From: a virus
Reading direction: 5' to 3' (one strand)
IMG/VR virus record: IMGVR_UViG_3300013285_000044
Span: 1-34,081 of that record
Length of the DNA: 34,081 bases
Below, piece after piece: positions 11,430 through 25,654 of the stretch; positions within the stretch are counted from its first letter, which is position 1, and the number at the start of each line of letters is the position of its first letter. The notes beneath the pieces are model-generated. The model was not told where the DNA came from. It worked only from the letters and a program-made list of their open reading frames with translations, and ran no database searches. The translations under genes and the position numbers were made by a program.

Positions 11430-12872
11430 CTAAACTGCATAGGGGTTATAACGTTTCTTATTTCGATCGTCAGCGTAGTCCATATCTCGAGTTGGAAGCA
11501 AATCAAGCTGGATCCATCCAGAATCACGCAGGACACGCAATGCTTGGGACAAAACGTCCACATAGTCATCATGCCCACCAGACTCTGGAAACGAACACAC
11601 TTGCCGTATAAAGCGTTTTGCCCATGGTGCTACCTCGCCAGGTTTGTCGGGATCTTCTGGAATGTAGACTTTACCTTTGGCAATCAGCGGTGCCACAATG
11701 TTAATACGTTGGACTTTATCCGCTCTGCCAGGGTTGTAACCCCGCACAGGAACACCAGATCCTTGAAGTTCTTGAATCAGCGAAATACCAGCCGACTTGT
11801 CTTCCATCAAAATAAGGTCTGCCTTACGCCCCTTGGCAAACTCATTGTCTGAGCCATACACCACTTCTTTAAAATCGTTGATCACTTTACGGCGTAGCTC
11901 TGGGTAACCTAAATGCTGATCCCACGCATCTAAGAGGATAATTGCTGTACCAATGTCCACCGACTCAAAAATACCGAACACACCGCACGCTGTTGGGTCG
12001 TTGGCGGTTTTCTCTGAGGTAGCGGGGTCGTAACTAGCAATTACATACTCAAGCACTGGAGACGGCTTTTTGGCTGGCCATGTTTTAAACCAGCGCCGTT
12101 TAACAATACCCGCATCTTCTGGATCCAAAATAGCGCCATAGATCTCTTGCTTACCGAGGTCGGTGCCTTCATAAGTTTCGAGCGCTTTAAAAAACGAAGA
12201 CGATAGGTTGGCTCGGTTCTCATAGGAGCTGGCGTTGACTACGAATACATCACCACCCACCTTACCTTCGTTCAGATCCACGATCAGTTCTCGGGGCTTG
12301 GGTGTCGTGGTGATGATCTGCTGGACTCTAGCAATCCGAGGGTCACGCAGACGCATGGTGAATTGCGCTTGATCCCAGGCATCGTCCAAATAGTCGAACG
12401 CGGCTAACTCGTCATACCAGCCACCATGGAATTGCTTACCACGATAACGCTCTGGTTCGGAGGCTGGGATACCTTGGATGATGGAGCCATTCTTAAGCGT
12501 AATCTCAAACAACGATTTGTTGTAAGTCTCAATCAATTCTGGCGGGATGATGTTTAAAAGACCAGAGTCTCCCTCAAAGCAGGTCGCCCTAATGTCGTTG
12601 GAGGTTGGCGCTGTGACCAACCAGCGTGTGCCACTGAACTGGGCTGCCCGCTGTCCAATCCAATTCGAAGCGGTGTAGGTCTTACCAGCGCCACGCCCCG
12701 CCAACATGAGCATGATGTCATACTCGCCATCCTCTGGCTCACGCTGATGCTTGAGTGCTTGTACTTCCCAGCGGATCTGCCAGAGCGCAAGAGCTAGTTG
12801 ATCTTTAGGCCAGTGTTGTCGTTTTGCTGCAAAGCTGGCAAGCAGCTTTTCTTGAATTGCGTTTAATGCCAT
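11430..12872 (-). CDS. terL: Large terminase subunit (ATPase and nuclease)
   Basis: The protein has 480 residues. The packaging ATPase shows Walker A LAGRGAGKT at 57-65, Walker B GGWYDELAAF at 150-159 and the coupling motif IITTTPKP at 186-193. The RNase H-like nuclease shows SYDPATSEK with Asp282, LILMEDKSAG with Asp358 and GGHDDYVDV with Asp435/436. All expected catalytic residues are present and no intein interrupts the gene. The start overlaps the end of the Hint gene by 10 nt. The enzyme cuts phage DNA and pumps it through the portal. Confidence 0.95.
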   Translation of the reverse strand: MALNAIQEKLLASFAAKRQHWPKDQLALALWQIRWEVQALKHQREPEDGEYDIMLMLAGRGAGKTYTASNWIGQRAAQFSGTRWLVTAPTSNDIRATCFEGDSGLLNIIPPELIETYNKSLFEITLKNGSIIQGIPASEPERYRGKQFHGGWYDELAAFDYLDDAWDQAQFTMRLRDPRIARVQQIITTTPKPRELIVDLNEGKVGGDVFVVNASSYENRANLSSSFFKALETYEGTDLGKQEIYGAILDPEDAGIVKRRWFKTWPAKKPSPVLEYVIASYDPATSEKTANDPTACGVFGIFESVDIGTAIILLDAWDQHLGYPELRRKVINDFKEVVYGSDNEFAKGRKADLILMEDKSAGISLIQELQGSGVPVRGYNPGRADKVQRINIVAPLIAKGKVYIPEDPDKPGEVAPWAKRFIRQVCSFPESGGHDDYVDVLSQALRVLRDSGWIQLDLLPTRDMDYADDRNKKRYNPYAV

Positions 12873-13843
12873 ATTGGTAGAAATCCCTGACCGACCACAA
12901 ACGGCGCATCTGTTTCGATGTGTACTGTGGGCGTGGGATCTATTCTCTCCACTTTAGTTATCATGCGGCGCTTATGACCCTTGATACCCTTTTTGGTTTG
13001 TTGCTTGGGGTGCAACTGGATATCGGTCTTAAACGTAAGTTGGTGCGTGAGCGATAAACGGTTATCAAACACATAGCTCTTCATTCCCAGCGATTCACAG
13101 ATCGATTGCAATGTAATCAGAAACCGCAAGTCACGGGAGTAGACAAGGAACCGATCTAGGCGTGAGTTGTAACATCCTGGTTTCATCGCAACAATCCCCT
13201 TGAGGAACTCAATCCGCTGTTCGATACTGCCGAAGGTGTACTCGATGGGTATTGTGGTGGGGACTGTTGGATAACGGGTTAAAAATGATACGTTAATCGA
13301 TTGTTTGAAGGCTAATAGGTTATTTTTCAACCGTTGCGTAAACCAACCAAGGGCACGGATTTTCTTTTGCACATAGTCAATCCATTCTGGATCAAAGGAA
13401 AAGACCACCTTGCCTTTTTGTTTGGCTGCCCACAATCCCACAATGAATGGTGGCACAGGATGATCCTCATAGGGAAAGTGAATCGGATCGGTGTTTTCAA
13501 TCGAGAACACATTCCAGCCTCGCTTATCTTTTAATCCCTTTTCAAGCAAATCGTCTGGTGTGTAATAGCGCTGGATGTAGTGGCGTTTGTATTTACCTTG
13601 GTGCCGGGATTCTCTCTGGCGGTTTCTGGTGGTGAACGCTGGAAACCGAGTGTGTTGGTCGACTTCCAGATAAACCCCATCTTTTAACTGCACATCAAAC
13701 ATCTGGGTTGGGGTGTAGTGCTGAATGGTTTTAATCGGTAGTGGATAGCCATCCCACGAAAAGACATAGTCCTTTGTAGTTAACTGACCCGCCAGTTTCC
13801 AGCCTCCCAATACGGGGACTGGAGTGTTACTTGCTATTCCCAA
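12863..13843 (-). CDS. Stand-alone intein-like Hint protein with degenerate LAGLIDADG region
   Basis: The protein has 326 residues from a TTG start. The N-terminal splicing block reads ASNTPVPVLGGWKLAGQ (4-20) and block B reads VYLEVDQHTRFPAF (57-70). The C-terminal block is VHIETDAPFVVGQGFLPIWH (307-326). The last His is present, but the following Asn needed for splicing is replaced by the stop codon. Between the blocks lies a LAGLIDADG-like region whose acidic positions look lost: FIVGLWAAKQKG (133-144) and FLKGIVAMKPG (213-223). It overlaps the upstream gene by 17 nt and terL by 10 nt, so it is translated alone rather than inside an extein. It may be a domesticated intein or a Hint protease. 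The frame is long and intact, which argues against simple decay. Confidence 0.75.
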   Translation of the reverse strand: MGIASNTPVPVLGGWKLAGQLTTKDYVFSWDGYPLPIKTIQHYTPTQMFDVQLKDGVYLEVDQHTRFPAFTTRNRQRESRHQGKYKRHYIQRYYTPDDLLEKGLKDKRGWNVFSIENTDPIHFPYEDHPVPPFIVGLWAAKQKGKVVFSFDPEWIDYVQKKIRALGWFTQRLKNNLLAFKQSINVSFLTRYPTVPTTIPIEYTFGSIEQRIEFLKGIVAMKPGCYNSRLDRFLVYSRDLRFLITLQSICESLGMKSYVFDNRLSLTHQLTFKTDIQLHPKQQTKKGIKGHKRRMITKVERIDPTPTVHIETDAPFVVGQGFLPIWH

Positions 13844-14368: not shown

Positions 14369-14381
14369 CTACTTATGCAAA
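14369..14381 (-). promoter_or_regulatory. TTTGCATAAGTAG motif, copy 4 (candidate phage promoter)
   Basis: This is an exact minus-strand 13-mer ending 4 nt before the ATG at 14364. It is the outermost minus-strand copy, facing away from the central non-coding hub, and would start the terminase unit. As at 7335, the geometry predicts a leaderless message. Confidence 0.65.
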
Positions 14382-14424
14382 CTCTATACACTGACCGCCC
14401 CAAATTGTTGCATTCATCGTAGTT

Positions 14425-14656
14425 CTATACAGAGGGTGACAGAGCTATCCCATTGATTCCAAAGTAAATTCCACTTTTAAAGACAGGGTATCCATAGAAG
14501 ACAGGGTCAAAACGTATATTACCTCCTATATATCTCTTTTATTTTATTAAATAAATAAATAAATAAACAAAATACTATGGATACTATGGATACCCTGTCT
14601 TTTAAAACAAGAAAGCTATATGGATTAAGGAGTTAGAGGAGACACCCTCTGTATAG
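14425..14656. repeat. Nested dyad element around an AT-rich core
   Basis: The outer arms CTATACAGAGGGTG (14425-14438) and CACCCTCTGTATAG (14643-14656) are perfect reverse complements. The inner arms AGACAGGGTATCCATAG (14481-14497) and CTATGGATACCCTGTCT (14584-14600) are perfect over 17 bp. Both pairs share the same centre, about 14540.5. Extra partial copies of the inner arm occur at 14496-14506 and 14573-14581, and another outer arm lies at 14673-14686. The centre is a run of AAAT units. Candidate roles are replication origin, regulator-binding region or cruciform. Confidence 0.8.
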
Positions 14657-14887
14657 AATCAGACAGGGAAGCCACCCTCTGTATAGCACTCAATGTTGCG
14701 TTGAACCTAGTTCTATACAAGTCTTCTAATAATTTACAAAAAAAATAAAAAATTACAGCGGAAATTTAACAAGCTTGCTTTTGGTTGGAGCCTCCCGCGC
14801 CCAAGCCGCAGGGAGTCGTAAAAGGTGGTGTGGCGTCAAAACAACACCGCCTTGCTTTGTTGCAAGGAAACAACGCAGCAATTTGAC

Positions 14888-15099
14888 AAGTGAGTGAGTG
14901 CTTACTTCCCAGGCTGAAGTGAGTACTCACTTACAAGTTAGTGGCTGCTAACTTGTTGCACTGCAACATAATGCAACGCAACATAATGCTAAGTAAGTAA
15001 GCGCTTACTAACTGCCAGGTTAGTGACTACTAACTTGTTGCAATGCAACATATTGCAACGCAACAATATGCCACGCTGATAATGTTAGTGTTTACTAAC
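14888..15099. repeat. Array of operator-like palindromes
   Basis: Dyads in this stretch are AAGTGAGTGAGTGCTTACTT (14888-14907, imperfect), AAGTGAGTACTCACTT (14917-14932, perfect), AAGTTAG-N6-CTAACTT (14935-14954), AGTAAGCGCTTACT (14996-15009, perfect), GTTAGT-N4-ACTAAC at 15019-15034 and again at 15084-15099. Interleaved are GTTGCA-N-TGCAAC at 14955-14967 and 15037-15049 and CATATTG-N8-CAATATG at 15049-15070. The shared half-site is near GTNAGTNA. This resembles a cluster of binding sites for a dimeric regulator or replication initiator. Confidence 0.75.
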
Positions 15100-15192
15100 T
15101 TAGCAGTTTGGTATGCGTGCGTGAGAGCGTGCTAGAGGATCGGCACAATTTCCAGCAATTGTGACAATGATGCAATGCAACAATATGGCCTT

Positions 15193-15517
15193 AGGGTAAA
15201 CACCTATTGACAATGCAATAGTGTTGTATTCCAGCAACTAAGGGTAAACACCTATTGTTTTGCTGTTAAATTTAATGTATTTTGAGGATCAGATCCCAGG
15301 GTAAACCCTAACGCTCAGATCGCACGCTATGCCATTATTACAATGCATCTAATGCAAGTAGATCAAAGCACAACAAAACACGCCAAAACCCCATTAAATC
15401 GATTGCAGAGGGTTTGCCTAATATTTAAGCAATGGATGACCTAATTATTTTCTAAGGGTTTGCCCTAATAGTAATAGGACAATCAATCTAATATTATATG
15501 AGATAGGGCAATTGTGC
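15193..15517 (+). repeat. Leader module A (duplicated at 16260-16527)
   Basis: Five blocks occur here in the same order as in the leader of the gene at 16550: AGGGTAAACACCTATTGACA (15193-15212, with a 17-nt repeat at 15241-15257), AGGGTAAACCCTAACG (15298-15313), CCAAAACCCCATTAAAT (15383-15399), GAGGGTTTGCCTAA (15408-15421) and ATAGGGCAATTGTGC (15503-15517). A further AGGGTTTGCCCT dyad lies at 15455-15466. The last block is followed by a GGAGGA ribosome-binding site. Duplicated promoter or operator DNA is the simplest reading. Confidence 0.75.
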
Positions 15518-15535
15518 CTATTAACTGGAGGATCT

Positions 15536-16177
15536 ATGCAACAAGTAATTAATTTTGTACAAAAAAACAATGTACATATATCCATTATGACTGGAAAACT
15601 GGAGGGATTAAAATCCATCTCTAGTAACACAGTTACCAATGATTATTGCATTAAGCAATATAATAGTAATAATGAAAATAATATTTGTACTAAATGCTAT
15701 TCTAATATAATGCTTAATAGTTATCGTAAGAATATGCAAAGTCCATTACAAAGTAATAGTAATATGTTATCTAGTAATATATTATCTGATAATCAATTAC
15801 CTATTATAATGGATGCATTTTTTAGATTTAATGCTCATGGGGAATTGATTAATGATATTCATTTAATTAATTTAGTTAATATTACCCTTAAAAATCCATC
15901 ATGCAATTTTGCATTATGGACAAAACAAAATGGATTAATTAAAAAGTATTTTGATAATAACCCAAAACCTAGTAATTTGATTTTGATATATTCCAATCCT
16001 AAAATCAATTCTATTATGGATAAAATCCCAAAACACTTTGATAAGACTTTTAATAATGTATTATCTACTGATTTTGTAGATCAACAAAACTGTACTGGAC
16101 AACAATGCAAAACTTGTTTACTTTGCTATAAGCATAATTCCACTACTAAAATTGTGGAAATGGTAAAAAAGTATTAA
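15536..16177 (+). CDS. Gp88-like phage protein with two Cys clusters
   Basis: The protein has 213 residues from the ATG at 15536, preceded by GGAGGA; an upstream GTG at 15512 is less likely. Cys38, CTKCYS (51-56), the phrase FFRFNAHGELIND (95-107), NFALWTKQNG (124-133), NLILIYSNPK (147-156) and the C-terminal cluster NCTGQQCKTCLLCYKH (185-200) follow the layout of the phage Gp88 family. That family's biochemical role is unknown; the Cys pattern suggests metal or Fe-S binding. It is the first plus-strand gene of the early arm, is very AT- and Asn-rich, and is followed by its own terminator. Confidence 0.65.
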   Translation: MQQVINFVQKNNVHISIMTGKLEGLKSISSNTVTNDYCIKQYNSNNENNICTKCYSNIMLNSYRKNMQSPLQSNSNMLSSNILSDNQLPIIMDAFFRFNAHGELINDIHLINLVNITLKNPSCNFALWTKQNGLIKKYFDNNPKPSNLILIYSNPKINSIMDKIPKHFDKTFNNVLSTDFVDQQNCTGQQCKTCLLCYKHNSTTKIVEMVKKY

Positions 16178-16791: not shown

Positions 16792-16971
16792 ATGACAATG
16801 GATAGCTATAGAGCAGTAGGATTGGCAGAGGGTTTTATTGAGGCAGATAGTGAAGAGCAAGTACTGGAGGCATGGCAATACTTGCACGATACCCGCCTAG
16901 GTTATGGGTTACAAGGGTTTTTTGGTCGAACCATTCGACAATTATTGGAAGAGGGTTTAATTAACCCCTAG
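16792..16971 (+). CDS. Small hypothetical protein (59 residues)
   Basis: It starts MTMDSYRAVGLAEGFIEADS two bases after the previous stop. The phrase EAWQYLHDTRLGYGLQGFFG followed by RTIRQLLEEGLI is a pattern I know from many small phage proteins of unknown role. It is short but clearly coding by codon use and by its tight fit between neighbours. Confidence 0.75.
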   Translation: MTMDSYRAVGLAEGFIEADSEEQVLEAWQYLHDTRLGYGLQGFFGRTIRQLLEEGLINP

Positions 16972-16981
16972 GCAGCCCCAT

Positions 16982-17060
16982 AAGGGTAAACCCCTGGAAT
17001 TTCGGATCCAAGGGTTTTCCCTAATTGTGTTGCAATAAACAGTCAGTACTATTGAATTGT
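16982..17060 (+). promoter_or_regulatory. Intergenic control module C (paired with 18486-18560)
   Basis: It contains AAGGGTAAACCCCTGGAAT, then AGGGTTTTCCCT (17011-17022), then TGTTGCAATA and CAGTACTATTGAA. The module before 18577 has the same succession with variations: GGGGTTTACCCTGGAAT, CAGGGTAACTACC, GTTGCAGTA and CAGTACGATTGAA. It probably holds a promoter with operators, but I cannot place -35 and -10 boxes with confidence. Confidence 0.55.
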
Positions 17061-17087
17061 AGTCAACCAAAACAAAGGAGAATTTTT

Positions 17088-17381
17088 ATGGCAAATTGGA
17101 AATATCAAATTGATCTGTCAGATATCTTCAGTAAATTTAATGATGATGGTGAAATCACAACCGATGAACCCATCCAAAAAATTGCAATGGATATCTATCA
17201 TCGGTTTTCAAAATTTATGGATGCCCATCCCGATATGTTCGAGGATGATTATTCCACAGAGGACAATATCGACAATTTAAAGTATTGCGATAATGTAAAA
17301 GAGATTGACACAATATTGTGTGAACTCTATGATTTTTGTGATGCAAATCGTATTTGGATAAACACTTGGGAGATAGCATGA
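17088..17381 (+). CDS. Acidic hypothetical protein
   Basis: The protein has 97 residues, starting MANWKYQIDLSDIFSKFNDD, with AGGAG seven nt before the ATG. It is strongly acidic and helical. Its stop overlaps the next ATG in an ATGA junction. No family recognised. Confidence 0.7.
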   Translation: MANWKYQIDLSDIFSKFNDDGEITTDEPIQKIAMDIYHRFSKFMDAHPDMFEDDYSTEDNIDNLKYCDNVKEIDTILCELYDFCDANRIWINTWEIA

Positions 17382-17830
17382 ATTTTCAAATTAAAGCTTT
17401 TAAACATTGGCAAACCGAAGATGGAGGTGGATATCAATTCAACCTTTATCTTGATGGCAAAAAGTTTGCATGGGTGCATAACGATGGCAATGGTGGGTGC
17501 ATCGATATGAATTTTGCTGATGGTAAGCACAATATGGATGACGATACCCCGAATGGCAAGATATGGGATGACTATGTCAAATCACTAGGACAATGGAAAT
17601 CATCTTGGGGTGCAATTAATGGTCAAGAATTTTTTGATCACGATACCGATACTGCCATTGGCATTTTGGTGGAAGAGTACGAGATGTCTAAGCATCGTAA
17701 AAAGGGCATTTTGTTTAAATTACCAGTTGATGGTGAGGGAACATTCCGAACCATTAAAACTCAAGATATGGATTTAGCAGTCGCACAATTAGATAAAACC
17801 TTTGGCAAGGGTAAGTACGAACTTGTGTAA
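17378..17830 (+). CDS. Hypothetical phage protein, 150 residues
   Basis: The ATG at 17378 overlaps the previous stop, which fixes the start over an in-frame upstream ATG at 17354. The N-terminal half looks like a beta sheet (FQIKAFKHWQTEDGGGYQFN, KKFAWVHNDGNGGCIDMNF), and the C-terminal half carries KGILFKLPVDGEGTFRTIKT. Similar text occurs in phage early proteins of unknown function. Confidence 0.7.
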   Translation: MNFQIKAFKHWQTEDGGGYQFNLYLDGKKFAWVHNDGNGGCIDMNFADGKHNMDDDTPNGKIWDDYVKSLGQWKSSWGAINGQEFFDHDTDTAIGILVEEYEMSKHRKKGILFKLPVDGEGTFRTIKTQDMDLAVAQLDKTFGKGKYELV

Positions 17831-17838
17831 TGTTGCCT

Positions 17839-17880
17839 AGTAAAGCATTCTGAGAGTGCTTTACTGGATCAATATTGATC
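17839..17880. promoter_or_regulatory. Hairpin plus 14-bp palindrome
   Basis: AGTAAAGCA (17839-17847) pairs with TGCTTTACT (17857-17865) around a 9-nt loop, with no following T run. Directly after it GATCAATATTGATC (17867-17880) is a perfect palindrome. The pair lies between two plus-strand genes and 21 nt before the next ATG. An operator or RNA-processing site is more likely than an intrinsic terminator. Confidence 0.55.
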
Positions 17881-17901
17881 ACACAAAATTAGGGAGTTAA
17901 G

Positions 17902-18081
17902 ATGACTAAAAAAATTAAAGTGCGTATCAGTACGCAATTTGATATCGAGGTATCGGAAGATTACTTTGAGAAAATGCGTAAGTATGATATCAAGTGGGAA
18001 TTACTTGATAAGTGTTTTAAAAATAATCCTATGACAGTTAACCATGCAACAATGGAGGTATTGAGCGATGAAACAGTTTGA
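17902..18081 (+). CDS. Small hypothetical protein (59 residues)
   Basis: It starts MTKKIKVRISTQFDIEVSED with GGGAG just upstream and ends in EVLSDETV. It is alpha/beta and charged. Its end overlaps the next gene by 14 nt, so the two are coupled. Function is unknown. Confidence 0.7.
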   Translation: MTKKIKVRISTQFDIEVSEDYFEKMRKYDIKWELLDKCFKNNPMTVNHATMEVLSDETV

Positions 18082-18268
18082 ATGCTTTTGGGGTGATGGA
18101 TATCGTAGTAACGATAAAAAGTCAACCCTTGCTTATTACGATTTAGAATTTTTTAATGAGTTGCGTGGCTATGGTGATCAAGAAATTCACATTGTCGACA
18201 CGCTTGAAATTGGCGATCGTGCAGAATTTAATGAATGCGGCGAGCATTGGGTGCGGAGGATAGCATGA
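18068..18268 (+). CDS. Small hypothetical protein
   Basis: The protein has 66 residues, starting MKQFECFWGDGYRSNDKKST and ending EFNECGEHWVRRIA. The preceding GGAG lies inside the upstream gene. Aromatic and acidic; no family recognised. Its stop overlaps the next ATG. Confidence 0.65.
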   Translation: MKQFECFWGDGYRSNDKKSTLAYYDLEFFNELRGYGDQEIHIVDTLEIGDRAEFNECGEHWVRRIA

Positions 18269-18477
18269 AAAAATGGCAAATCGAGGCATTGTTTTTTAAC
18301 ATCGGCTGGGAAGTGCCGAATGAAATTGACAACCAGTTATTTGATAGCAAGGAAGAGGCAGAACTAGAACTCCAAGATCACCTTGATTCAATGGCATACG
18401 CAGTCGAGATGGGTTACATGGAAGACTCCAATGCCCATGATTGGCGAGTAGCGGAGGTGGATGTTTCGCAACCCTAA
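18265..18477 (+). CDS. Small acidic hypothetical protein
   Basis: The protein has 70 residues from the ATG at 18265, which forms an ATGA junction with the upstream stop. It contains KKWQIEALFFNIGWEVPNE and KEEAELELQDHLDSMAYAVE. A small anti-host or regulatory role is possible, but nothing in the sequence shows one. Confidence 0.65.
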   Translation: MKKWQIEALFFNIGWEVPNEIDNQLFDSKEEAELELQDHLDSMAYAVEMGYMEDSNAHDWRVAEVDVSQP

Positions 18478-20720: not shown

Positions 20721-20752
20721 GGGTGACCCCCAATCCGATTGGAGATTCCCCA

Positions 20753-21328
20753 TTGAGAAACCGCAAGAATGCGCTGACTGATTATATGCAGTCGCTATAC
20801 AAGATCCCTACGCTGACCCTCGAGGAAGAGGCAAGGCTGGGGATTCTAATTGCTCAAGGTGACGAGGGCGCGCTGGACAGATTAGTAACCCACAACCTAC
20901 GCTTTGTAGTCTCGGTCATTAAAAAGATGCCGAATTGGGCGCATTCCAATATGCCGATGGAAGACTTATTATCATTCGGCAACGAGGCCTTGCTCAACGC
21001 AGCCCGCTCCTGGAAACCGATGGGAAAAATCCGATTTGCCTCGTATGCCAAGAAATTCATTCACTTCGATGTCAATCGGGGTGTTGCCAATACCAAGAAC
21101 ATTATTCGATTGCCAGTAAATATTACTGAAGAGATCCGCAGAATCAAATACACCGAGCGCGTACTGAGTCAAACTCTCCAGCGCGAGCCGACCGACACAG
21201 AGCTTGCCGACAGGCTGGGGGTGTCAACCACTCGGATTGCATACATTAATTCCATAATCAGTAAAGAGCCAGTAAGCTTAGAGATATTTAATTCCGAACA
21301 TTTAGAACAAGAAGGATACGATGACTGA
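20753..21328 (+). CDS. Sigma-70 family factor lacking region 4
   Basis: The protein has 191 residues from TTG at 20753, which has GGAGA seven nt upstream; the in-frame GTG at 20723 (201 residues) has no visible ribosome-binding site. Region 1.2 reads DYMQSLYKIPTLTLEEEARL. Region 2 reads LVTHNLRFVVSVIKKM, MEDLLSFGNEALLNAARSW, then IRFASYAKKFIHFDVNRGV. Region 3 is IRLPVNITEEIRRIK through LADRLGVSTTRIAYINSI. The protein stops shortly afterwards, so the -35-binding region 4 is missing. Such factors recognise one-box promoters, as T4 gp55 does. It would redirect host RNA polymerase to phage genes. Confidence 0.88.
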   Translation: MRNRKNALTDYMQSLYKIPTLTLEEEARLGILIAQGDEGALDRLVTHNLRFVVSVIKKMPNWAHSNMPMEDLLSFGNEALLNAARSWKPMGKIRFASYAKKFIHFDVNRGVANTKNIIRLPVNITEEIRRIKYTERVLSQTLQREPTDTELADRLGVSTTRIAYINSIISKEPVSLEIFNSEHLEQEGYDD

Positions 21329-23013: not shown

Positions 23014-23126
23014 ATTGCTGCACTGCATCCTGTCTTCCCTGTCTCTATTGCGGCGCACAATTTCATTGAAAATTCATGCAAAAACACTAGATGTAGTGGT
23101 TGATTAGGCGCAAACCTACTGGAAAT

Positions 23127-23240
23127 CCATAGAAGACATAGAAGACATAGTAATATTGAATTATCTCTTTTTAAAATTAAAATAAAATAAAAAGATATAG
23201 GGTAAAGTGAGTTAGACCGTGGATACCCTGTCTTCTATGG
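23127..23240. repeat. Inverted repeat with AT-rich core, related to the hub dyad
   Basis: The 334-nt gap 23014-23347 holds this element. CCATAGAAGACA (23127-23138) and TGTCTTCTATGG (23229-23240) are perfect reverse complements 90 bp apart. A direct repeat of AGAAGACATA follows the left arm, and GGATACCCTGTCTT (23221-23234) is shared with the inner arm of the hub dyad at 14588-14601. Both elements enclose AT-rich DNA containing TATCTCTTTT. They are therefore two copies of one cis-acting element, here just upstream of the primase-helicase gene. Confidence 0.75.
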
Positions 23241-23311
23241 CGAATCATAACTAAAAGTAATAAGCTATATAACTAAAAATTATATAGGTACACCACCAAA
23301 AGTGCCTATAA

Positions 23312-23324
23312 TTTGCATAAGTAG
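23312..23324 (+). promoter_or_regulatory. TTTGCATAAGTAG motif, copy 5 (candidate phage promoter)
   Basis: This is an exact plus-strand 13-mer 23 nt before the primase-helicase ATG. The leader between them contains AGAAGAGG, a normal ribosome-binding site. It would start the replication transcription unit. Confidence 0.65.
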
Positions 23325-23347: not shown

Positions 23348-25654
23348 ATGAAGCCGAAGGTCTTACCAGTATTATTCCAAAATATACCTCTTGCACTACG
23401 CACAATCCCACGCTGGACACTGTGGAATTATGTAGAAGTGGGAGAGAATGAAACAAAACGTTGGTCAAAACTGCCAGTACAACCCTCTGGTAAGGCTGCC
23501 AGTTCAACAAACGCATCAACATGGACAGACTTTCATTCTGTCGAGGCGGCATACCTAACCGCCAAGTTTGATGGTATTGGATTTGTATTTACCAAGGATG
23601 ACCACATTGTTGGCGTTGATATGGACGATTGCTTTGATGAACAAACTCTTAAGTTCACCAACCCGACCTTAGAGGCGATTGCCAACAAGATCGATGGTTA
23701 CATGGAGATCAGCCCATCGGGTACTGGGGTCAAAATATTTACACTGGGTGACATCCCTAGTGCATTCGTTGACCATAGCATCGGTCTTGAAGTGTATAAG
23801 ATGGGTCGGTACTTTACTGTTACTGGTCAAAAGATTCGTGGAGAGTTACCAACCGAGTTGCAAGACTTTACTGACATCATCCCCGAGCGTACAGTACGCT
23901 TAACTGGCGATGCCTTTGCTGACTACAACCCACCGCTCGATGGGTGGGACTTAGCTAAAGTTGAAACAGAACTACTGCCAAACTTTGACCCAACCTACTA
24001 CACCGATTGGTTGCAAGTGGGGATGTGTTTACATCATCAATTCCAGGGTGACATTGAGGCTTGTGAGGCATGGGATCGCTGGTCATATGGTGATGGTAGC
24101 GTAGAAAGTTATAACAACAACGCTTGTGAAAACAAGTGGAAAACCTTTAGTCAAAAAAGTGGTGGAGCAACACTACGCACATTGACTTATAAAATATCAT
24201 CGAACAAACGCAACGATGCGTTAGCCAAGGGCGATGTGATTCTGTCTGCAGCCCCATTGGAGAATGCACAGACTTTTCTAGACTCAAAGTTTTCATCTGA
24301 AGAAGGTATCAAGCTAGTGCATTACTCGGGCGACTTCTTCAGCTACCAAGGTACGCACTATGCCGAGGTGGAAGAGTCAACCATTCGCTCTGAGTTGTAT
24401 AAGTTTTTAGACAAGTGTAAGAAACAAGATCGCAAAGGCAATGTTGTTGCGTTTGCCCCAAATCCAGCGAGCGTGAGCGGTGCAATGGATGGCATCAAGG
24501 CATTGACACACTTACAGAACCAAGCCAACACACGCCCACCAGTATGGCTTGATGGTTACAGTGCCAATCGTCCCGAGGCGAGTAAACTGGTCAGCGTTAA
24601 GAATGGTTTGTTTCACTTAGAAGATAACATCCTACTGCCACACTCATTGGGCCTGTATACACAGAACTCATTGCCATTTGCGTATGACCCGATGGCACAG
24701 TGTCCCTTGTGGATGAAGTTCTTAGATGATGTTTGGGGAATGGATCAGCAGTCAATTGATTGCTTGCAAGAGATGTTTGGCTACATCCTATCGGGTGATA
24801 CAGCACAGCAAAAGTTTTTTAACATCATTGGACCACGCCGTTCGGGTAAGGGCACAATTAACAAAATCTTAGTGGCGTTACTTGGGCAACATAACACAGT
24901 AGCACCCCAATTGGAGGAACTTTGTGATACATTTGGTCTGCAGCCTTGGCTGGGTAAGCTCCTCGCTTCTTTTACTGATGCGAGAGCACCTGAACGAAAC
25001 AGATCTTCTGTTGTATCTCAGCTTCTGCGGATTGTGGGCGGGGACACTATTACCGTTAACCGCAAGAACAAGGAGAGTTGGAATGGCTATTTGCCTACTC
25101 GCATTGTTATTTACAGTAACGAGGTTCTTCAATTAACAGAGAACTCCAATGCCCTCACTGGTCGTATGGTAGTGCTCAAGATGACACACAGTTTTTACAA
25201 CAAGGAAGACACTAACCTATCAAACAAACTGATGGCCGAACTATCAGGCATTTTTAACTGGGCAATGGGTGGATTGAGTAGGCGGATTGAGCGTGGTGGG
25301 TATTTTGTGCAACCAGATAGTGGTAAAGAGTTACTGGAAACCATGGAAGAAATGAGCAACCCAATTAGTGCGTTCATAGAGCAAGTTATGGAGTATGACC
25401 CCGAAGGTGAAGTAGATAAGGATCATGCCTTCATTTGCTATAAGCGTTGGGCAACAAAGCATGGACTCAATCCAGGAAATGACTTATCCTTTAAGCGTAG
25501 ATTCCTTGCATCAACACAAGATAAGAATGTAATATCAAGCGCCATTCGGGTTGATGGTAAACGACAACATAAATACTTGGGTATTAAGCTAACAGAAAAA
25601 GCTTTAGCGTATGTAGAAAAGCAAGTATACTTTGAAGAAGAGGAAATATTTTGA
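23348..25654 (+). CDS. Primase-helicase (primpol, PriCT-2 and D5/SF3 helicase)
   Basis: The protein has 768 residues. The N-terminal primase/polymerase domain shows SKLPVQPSGKAASSTNASTW (40-59), IVGVDMDDCFD with acidic Asp91/Asp93, and EISPSGTGVKIFT (120-132). A PriCT-2-like stretch follows at about 205-285 (YTDWLQVGMCLHHQF, ACEAWDRWSYGDG). The helicase half has Walker A GPRRSGKGT near 494-502 and later PTRIVIYSNE. The order matches P4-type and NrS-1-type phage primase-polymerase-helicases, which prime and unwind at phage origins and may also polymerise. No other DNA polymerase is present in the window. It follows the inverted repeat at 23127-23240, a natural candidate origin. Confidence 0.88.
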   Translation: MKPKVLPVLFQNIPLALRTIPRWTLWNYVEVGENETKRWSKLPVQPSGKAASSTNASTWTDFHSVEAAYLTAKFDGIGFVFTKDDHIVGVDMDDCFDEQTLKFTNPTLEAIANKIDGYMEISPSGTGVKIFTLGDIPSAFVDHSIGLEVYKMGRYFTVTGQKIRGELPTELQDFTDIIPERTVRLTGDAFADYNPPLDGWDLAKVETELLPNFDPTYYTDWLQVGMCLHHQFQGDIEACEAWDRWSYGDGSVESYNNNACENKWKTFSQKSGGATLRTLTYKISSNKRNDALAKGDVILSAAPLENAQTFLDSKFSSEEGIKLVHYSGDFFSYQGTHYAEVEESTIRSELYKFLDKCKKQDRKGNVVAFAPNPASVSGAMDGIKALTHLQNQANTRPPVWLDGYSANRPEASKLVSVKNGLFHLEDNILLPHSLGLYTQNSLPFAYDPMAQCPLWMKFLDDVWGMDQQSIDCLQEMFGYILSGDTAQQKFFNIIGPRRSGKGTINKILVALLGQHNTVAPQLEELCDTFGLQPWLGKLLASFTDARAPERNRSSVVSQLLRIVGGDTITVNRKNKESWNGYLPTRIVIYSNEVLQLTENSNALTGRMVVLKMTHSFYNKEDTNLSNKLMAELSGIFNWAMGGLSRRIERGGYFVQPDSGKELLETMEEMSNPISAFIEQVMEYDPEGEVDKDHAFICYKRWATKHGLNPGNDLSFKRRFLASTQDKNVISSAIRVDGKRQHKYLGIKLTEKALAYVEKQVYFEEEEIF

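Follow-up and report, generated by a model that had tools for sequence, protein, structure and literature searches.

A nested dyad in the genome of a freshwater bacterial virus is most likely one of two matching DNA replication start sites

Genome context and features of the locus

The window analysed here is the whole 34-kb viral record IMGVR_UViG_3300013285_000044 (34,081 nucleotides). Its left arm carries structural and packaging genes and its right arm genes for a primase, a sigma-like protein, a methylase and a helicase. All profile-identified genes are located on the minus strand in the left arm and on the plus strand in the right arm; thus, the nested dyad, hereafter site 1, lies where the two gene arms diverge, and the placement in a large non-coding stretch between divergent arms, which had been predicted from the letters alone, agrees with the identified genes. 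A second element, site 2, precedes the primase-helicase gene. The features of both sites are as follows:

14369..14381, minus strand: TTTGCATAAGTAG as the promoter-like motif of the leftward gene; the window has seven perfect copies
14423..14438, minus strand: left outer arm, TGTATAGAA preceded by CACCCTC, reading leftwards; perfect inverted match to 14643-14658
14446..14458, minus strand: degenerate IHF-like site AATCAATGGGATA, one mismatch to WATCAANNNNTTR; perfect at the equivalent place in L003, L006, L009, L012, L016 and L026
14480..14506, plus strand: left iteron array AAGACAGGG TATCCATAG AAGACAGGG, facing the core; seen in the sequence and in the 9-bp periodicity across relatives
14507..14574, no strand: AT-rich core with T prevailing in its left part and A in its right part, probably a DNA unwinding element; stability minimum, kept in relatives
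14575..14601, minus strand: right iteron array, inverted, AAGACAGGG TATCCATAG TATCCATAG, facing the core; seen in the sequence
14623..14635, plus strand: degenerate IHF-like site GATTAAGGAGTTA, two mismatches; perfect at the equivalent place in L009, L012, L015, L020, G004 and G005
14643..14658, plus strand: right outer arm, CACCCTC TGTATAGAA; perfect inverted match to the left outer arm
14661..14686, plus strand: further unit row AGACAGGG AAGCCACCC TCTGTATAG; direct repeats D5 and D7
23126..23150, plus strand: site 2 left array, TCCATAG AAGACATAG AAGACATAG
23161..23199, no strand: site 2 AT-rich core; the 60 bp from 23139 rank third in the window for low stability
23217..23242, minus strand: site 2 right array, inverted, CGCCATAG AAGACAGGG TATCCACGG
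23312..23324, plus strand: TTTGCATAAGTAG as the promoter-like motif of the primase-helicase gene; another of the seven perfect copies
23348..25654, plus strand: primase-helicase (AEP primase, PriCT_2, D5_N, SF3-like helicase, predicted C-terminal winged helix), proposed initiator

Several neighbouring features were recorded in passing. The non-coding stretch 14869-15187 holds many TTAGTGAGTACTAA-type palindromes and TTGCAACGCAACA repeats, which, unlike the iterons, are alike in the distant relatives G004 and G005. Repeated TAGGGTAAACCCTAAC-like words with an operator-like appearance surround small genes at 16900-18300 of the related record G001 and in further relatives; one small gene amid such words has a weak GP88 match (window 15512-16177). 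Directly upstream of the terminase gene, a 326-aa open reading frame (12863-13843) diverges rapidly (around 30% between lineages); its start is Hint/intein-like, and it matches terminase weakly. Two large-terminase genes at this place are also found in Caulobacter phage RLK.

Anatomy of the nested dyad

The nested dyad is not due to chance. Both inverted repeats of the original prediction are perfect, namely a 17-bp pair at 14481-14497/14584-14600 and a 14-bp pair at 14425-14438/14643-14656, and they are indeed concentric, sharing the centre 14540.5. When extended, the inner pair reaches 23 bp with one mismatch (14475-14497/14584-14606) and the outer pair stays perfect to 16 bp (14423-14438/14643-14658). 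Among 60 dinucleotide shuffles of the window, an exact inverted pair within 230 nt was found in 0/60 cases for 17 bp and in 4/60 for 14 bp. The AT-rich core anticipated between the arms lies at 14507-14574, and nearest-neighbour energies place the lowest duplex stability of the whole window in the 60 bp from 14527.

Beyond what had been noticed before, the arms of site 1 are made of tandem 9-bp units, and further unit copies lie beside them (14498-14506, 14575-14583 and 14661-14686). From the outside in, each side presents an outward-reading TGTATAGAA after CACCCTC, an IHF-like site and a row of 9-bp units facing the core. Since the arms are inverted unit rows around an AT-rich core, the concentric dyad can be understood as the symmetry of two facing rows of sites. 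Exact TGTATAGAA occurs in four copies in each of three related records, all of them at site 1.

A constant layout with changing words

A terminase search yielded 80 related viral contigs, around 23 of which align to the dyad region at the DNA level. Most of the non-aligning relatives that reach far enough share this layout and carry it in the equivalent position upstream of the terminase block, so that the conservation by which the dyad was to be judged is found at the level of layout, with AT core and iterons recurring at this position. The 9-bp period, the inverted geometry, the AT core and usually the IHF consensus are kept between lineages, whereas the units differ: the word is TTGCGGGGG in G005, and other lineages carry TTGTCACAC, TTGCAAGGG, TTGTCGGGG, TTGTCACCA, TTGACACAC, TTGTCCGAC, TTGCACAGG, GTAGCGCGG and others. 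In elements chosen by an inverted pair around an AT core, and not by periodicity, the identity at lag 9 over 83 distinct arrays was 0.41 on the left and 0.46 on the right, and at lag 18, it was 0.35 and 0.33, respectively; the remaining lags gave around 0.26, and shuffles did not exceed 0.29.

Of the non-redundant elements, 19 of 21 at site 1 (shuffled mean 1.0) and 15 of 34 at site 2 (shuffled mean 1.6) contain a perfect IHF consensus. The complete genome G004 (64.8 kb) has only two IHF matches, one at each site, and two of the three matches in G005 lie at the two sites. Furthermore, three lineages (G004/G005, L043 and L035) carry paired TTATCCACA DnaA boxes next to site 1, and G013 has a tandem row of four such boxes next to site 2. 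In the window, both IHF sites of site 1 are degenerate, with one and two mismatches, and a DnaA box is absent; this is the main weakness of the case for the window's own copy.

A DNA-level search with the dyad region in GenBank phages gave no match, and in the parts fetched of the isolated phages RLK, MW202545, Henu15 and Sasha no element stood out. Proteus phage 2207-N35, an isolated phage with a related primase, has TGTTTCAC words clustered in both orientations in AT-rich DNA upstream of the small terminase gene (L235 6390-6700); the cluster lacks the strict layout of site 1 and is possibly a cultivable relative of the element. A search for the host by primase in genome contigs returned one contig of a betaproteobacterial metagenome-assembled genome (61%), which may itself be viral.

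A second copy before the primase-helicase gene

A unit census revealed a second cluster at 23037-23242 of the window, directly upstream of the primase-helicase gene, and a cluster before this gene in each relative that holds it. The element within it (23126-23242) consists of inverted 9-bp rows around an AT core and thus repeats the layout of site 1. A genome-wide element detector was run over 24 records, 14 of which hold both terminase and primase genes; in 11 of these 14, with G001 and G011 representing one genome, the top two elements were site 1, close to the terminase block, and site 2, ahead of the primase gene. The exceptions are G014 with none, G015 with a single, relocated element, and G013, in which the terminase lies at the contig end and site 2 scores below the reporting threshold. 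Detected elements scored 23-49, and the maximum in block-shuffled sequence was 17.2. The unit words are the same in both copies of one genome and mostly different between lineages: sites 1 and 2 of a genome have 15-34 8-mers in common, compared to at most six for random windows. A primase search added 80 loci, most of them with site 2; some relatives have no recognisable site 2.

The primase-helicase as a candidate initiator

The primase-helicase matches the profiles PriCT_2, D5_N and DUF5906 and, over its primase domain, the PDB entry 7ola, which we take to be the SaPI5 primase-helicase. The last 150 residues, modelled from 30 relatives (pLDDT 81), form a predicted winged helix, whose best matches are two RFX DNA-binding domains (Z 10.8 and 10.4) and the P4 origin-binding domain 1ka8 (Z 8.3). 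The protein thereby combines a primase, a D5_N/SF3 helicase and a predicted C-terminal winged-helix domain, as initiators of the P4/SaPI type do, and the iterons characteristic of that type are found in cis beside an AT-rich stretch.

It speaks against recognition of the units by the winged helix that its recognition helix stays conserved although the units vary. A window-based coevolution scan of the primase gave no signal specific to the winged-helix domain; its highest windows are the PriCT region and the surroundings of residue 650. When all 768 columns were compared with the unit class, residue 741, which lies in the wing, ranked first: it is histidine in 24 of 25 proteins with CA-type units and in none of nine with GC-type units (Fisher 1.9e-7, for a hypothesis drawn from the same data). 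The direction held, more weakly, in 15 classified held-out loci (8/12 versus 0/3, p 0.08). On the tree, only around three independent changes underlie the association; in two of three cases, the class changes on the same branch as the residue (p 0.006). The apparent tracking of the unit class by residue 741 is a lead, not proof.

GC skew

Three complete maps are available: one of 67.7 kb, of which G001 and G011 represent circular permutations, and those of G004 and G005, which have short terminal repeats. The GC skew changes sign between the two sites in all three. The minimum of the cumulative curve, in which an origin at the dyad should be visible according to the original prediction, does not fall exactly at the dyad: after detrending, its distance from site 1 is 2.2, 3.8 and 4.2 kb, always to the right. 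The amplitude is greater than in block permutations. As the genes switch direction at the same place, the skew can count only as consistent with an origin; however, a part of the left arm has a non-negative skew despite its minus-strand genes, so gene direction is not the sole cause.

A proposed replication origin

The dyad had been suggested to be a replication origin or a bidirectional control centre. The first of these readings is well supported by the AT core, the iterons, the IHF consensus and, in some cases, the DnaA boxes that relatives keep, as well as by the same iterons at the gene of a primase-helicase with a predicted P4-type origin-binding fold. We therefore propose, with a probability of roughly 0.72, that bidirectional replication starts at site 1, an iteron-type origin of the P4/SaPI kind, which would be recognised by the primase-helicase of this freshwater tailed phage itself.

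The units, their period and geometry, the conservation, the second copy, the IHF and DnaA consensus in relatives and the predicted fold are established from sequence, and from them we infer binding, melting, fork direction and looping in the following way. The two inverted rows of 9-bp units would be binding sites of the primase-helicase, whose C-terminal winged helix probably recognises the units. One set of helicase subunits might assemble per row, with the sets facing each other as for SaPI Rep, and bending by IHF would assist in most lineages. The AT core would then melt, and two forks would depart in opposite directions. Site 2, upstream of the primase-helicase gene, could serve as another origin, in autoregulation or in both roles, and a loop may connect it to site 1.

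Alternative explanations

The main rival is a pure transcription-control element without origin function: with the 9-bp rows as its operators, a phage regulator would govern the leftward genes from site 1 and the primase operon from site 2. A pure operator is possible, but we consider it rather improbable. Each site has a copy of the promoter-like motif downstream of it (14369-14381 for site 1 and 23312-23324 for site 2), promoters can likewise have IHF sites and AT tracts, and the turnover of the words resembles that of immunity-type regulators. On the other hand, an operator needs neither symmetric inverted rows around a melting core nor paired DnaA boxes, the protein encoded beside site 2 has a predicted origin-binding fold, and TTTGCATAAGTAG stands before other genes without any array. 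This 13-bp motif, which is likely the phage's own promoter, has seven perfect copies in the window (3389, 7335, 11399 and 14369 on the minus strand; 23312, 32108 and 33725 on the plus strand), which are distributed over both arms and mostly located directly upstream of genes. Only one of the seven adjoins the dyad, and the bidirectional control centre is accordingly the weaker half of the original prediction.

TGTATAGAA was also considered as the main outward promoter, which is possible, but it is the different motif TTTGCATAAGTAG that is spread over both arms. Variants of the latter, TTTGCATTAATA and TTTGTATTAGTAG, precede the primase gene in relatives. The window also encodes a conserved sigma-70-like protein of 201 aa (20723-21328) with regions 1.2, 2 and 3 and no match to region 4; it could recognise promoters that lack a -35 box, for instance TTTGCATAAGTAG.

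That the small terminase subunit binds the element as a packaging site (pac/cos) is very unlikely. In nearly all relatives, around 1.3-1.7 kb separate site 1 from the large terminase gene downstream of it, and cosB of phage lambda likewise combines repeats with an IHF site; however, packaging is directional while the element is symmetric, a second copy stands at the primase gene, and relatives carry DnaA boxes.

Still harder to sustain is a cruciform or hairpin whose function would be the pairing of its arms. The strand folds far better than shuffles (z -5.1), and G004 and G005 have perfect 33-bp arms that differ by a matched change in both arms, although this joint change could reflect copying between the arms. 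As a function, pairing is improbable: the original prediction looked for arms preserved by compensating changes, but among 55 non-redundant elements only 9% are at least 85% complementary over 36 bp, the mean is 65%, and 35% of the elements fall below 60%, yet the 9-bp period is kept. An Rfam search gave no match. Since the arms are not kept complementary in relatives, a functional hairpin is unlikely and a hairpin with compensating changes was rejected; the persistence of the 9-bp words despite lost complementarity makes it more likely that they are read as sites. The failed complementarity counts against the hairpin, not against the origin. Finally, although IHF sites and short repeats also occur in phage attachment sites (attP), this least probable reading was rejected because the tyrosine integrase profile PF00589 had no match in five related records, two of which are apparently complete as they have terminal repeats (positive controls were found in 14 genomes), and because each genome holds two copies of the element.

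Possible diversification of the origin words

The most interesting part is the concerted change of the word in the two copies of one genome, which itself needs explaining. As a tentative scheme, to which we give somewhat less than even odds, the replication origin proposed here might follow an origin code: the architecture would be fixed, the 9-bp word would be swapped in both genome copies at once, and the initiator would adjust a few wing residues, notably residue 741. Specificity would thereby diversify between co-occurring phages, and the two copies would act together by looping. If true, such diversification might serve, for instance, to escape origin-reading nucleases or cross-initiation.

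To our knowledge, few tailed phages have a known replication origin. The freshwater phages considered here, an entire uncultured family, share a recognisable paired element with lineage-specific words beside the gene of its likely reader. It would offer a natural data set for the joint specificity change of initiator and origin; in addition, it could help to locate origins in phages known from metagenomes and supply orthogonal origin/initiator pairs for testing in laboratory strains.

Comparison with known systems

The closest known cases appear to be SaPI Rep and the alpha protein of phage P4. P4 has two repeat-bearing sites, ori and crr, and resembles the genome described here with its sites 1 and 2 in this respect. 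Alpha binds the origin repeats with a winged helix (PMC4234260), and the likeness lies in a primase-helicase with a C-terminal winged helix, the predicted fold here matching 1ka8. However, the primase domain of alpha is of the DnaG type (Toprim), whereas that of the proposed initiator is of the archaeo-eukaryotic type; the comparison made here covers the protein and the number of repeat-bearing sites.

SaPI Rep binds the origin iterons by its C-terminal domain, apparently as two hexamers (PMC7581432). Short iterons and a self-loading initiator helicase, as proposed here, are found for SaPI Rep, the SaPI5 primase-helicase and the SCCmec Cch2 origin (PMC7581432). SaPI origins are located downstream of the rep gene, whereas in the phage genome one copy lies upstream of the gene and one around 9 kb away at the genome divergence; in addition, the phage element differs by its 9-bp units in inverted rows and the IHF consensus in most lineages.

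The primase-polymerase of NrS-1 has a similar AEP and D5_N/SF3 layout, and its 8-nt recognition sequence occurs twice in the genome centre, once per strand, which is maybe its origin (PMC7102993). Tandem iteron rows are not described there, and sequence similarity was found over the primase domain only. Covariation of origin words and initiator, as suggested here for the 9-bp units, is known from the PLE of Vibrio cholerae (PMC8263062); PLE is a satellite and not a phage, and differs by an unrelated initiator, RepA (RepA_N), and three iterons of around 30 bp.
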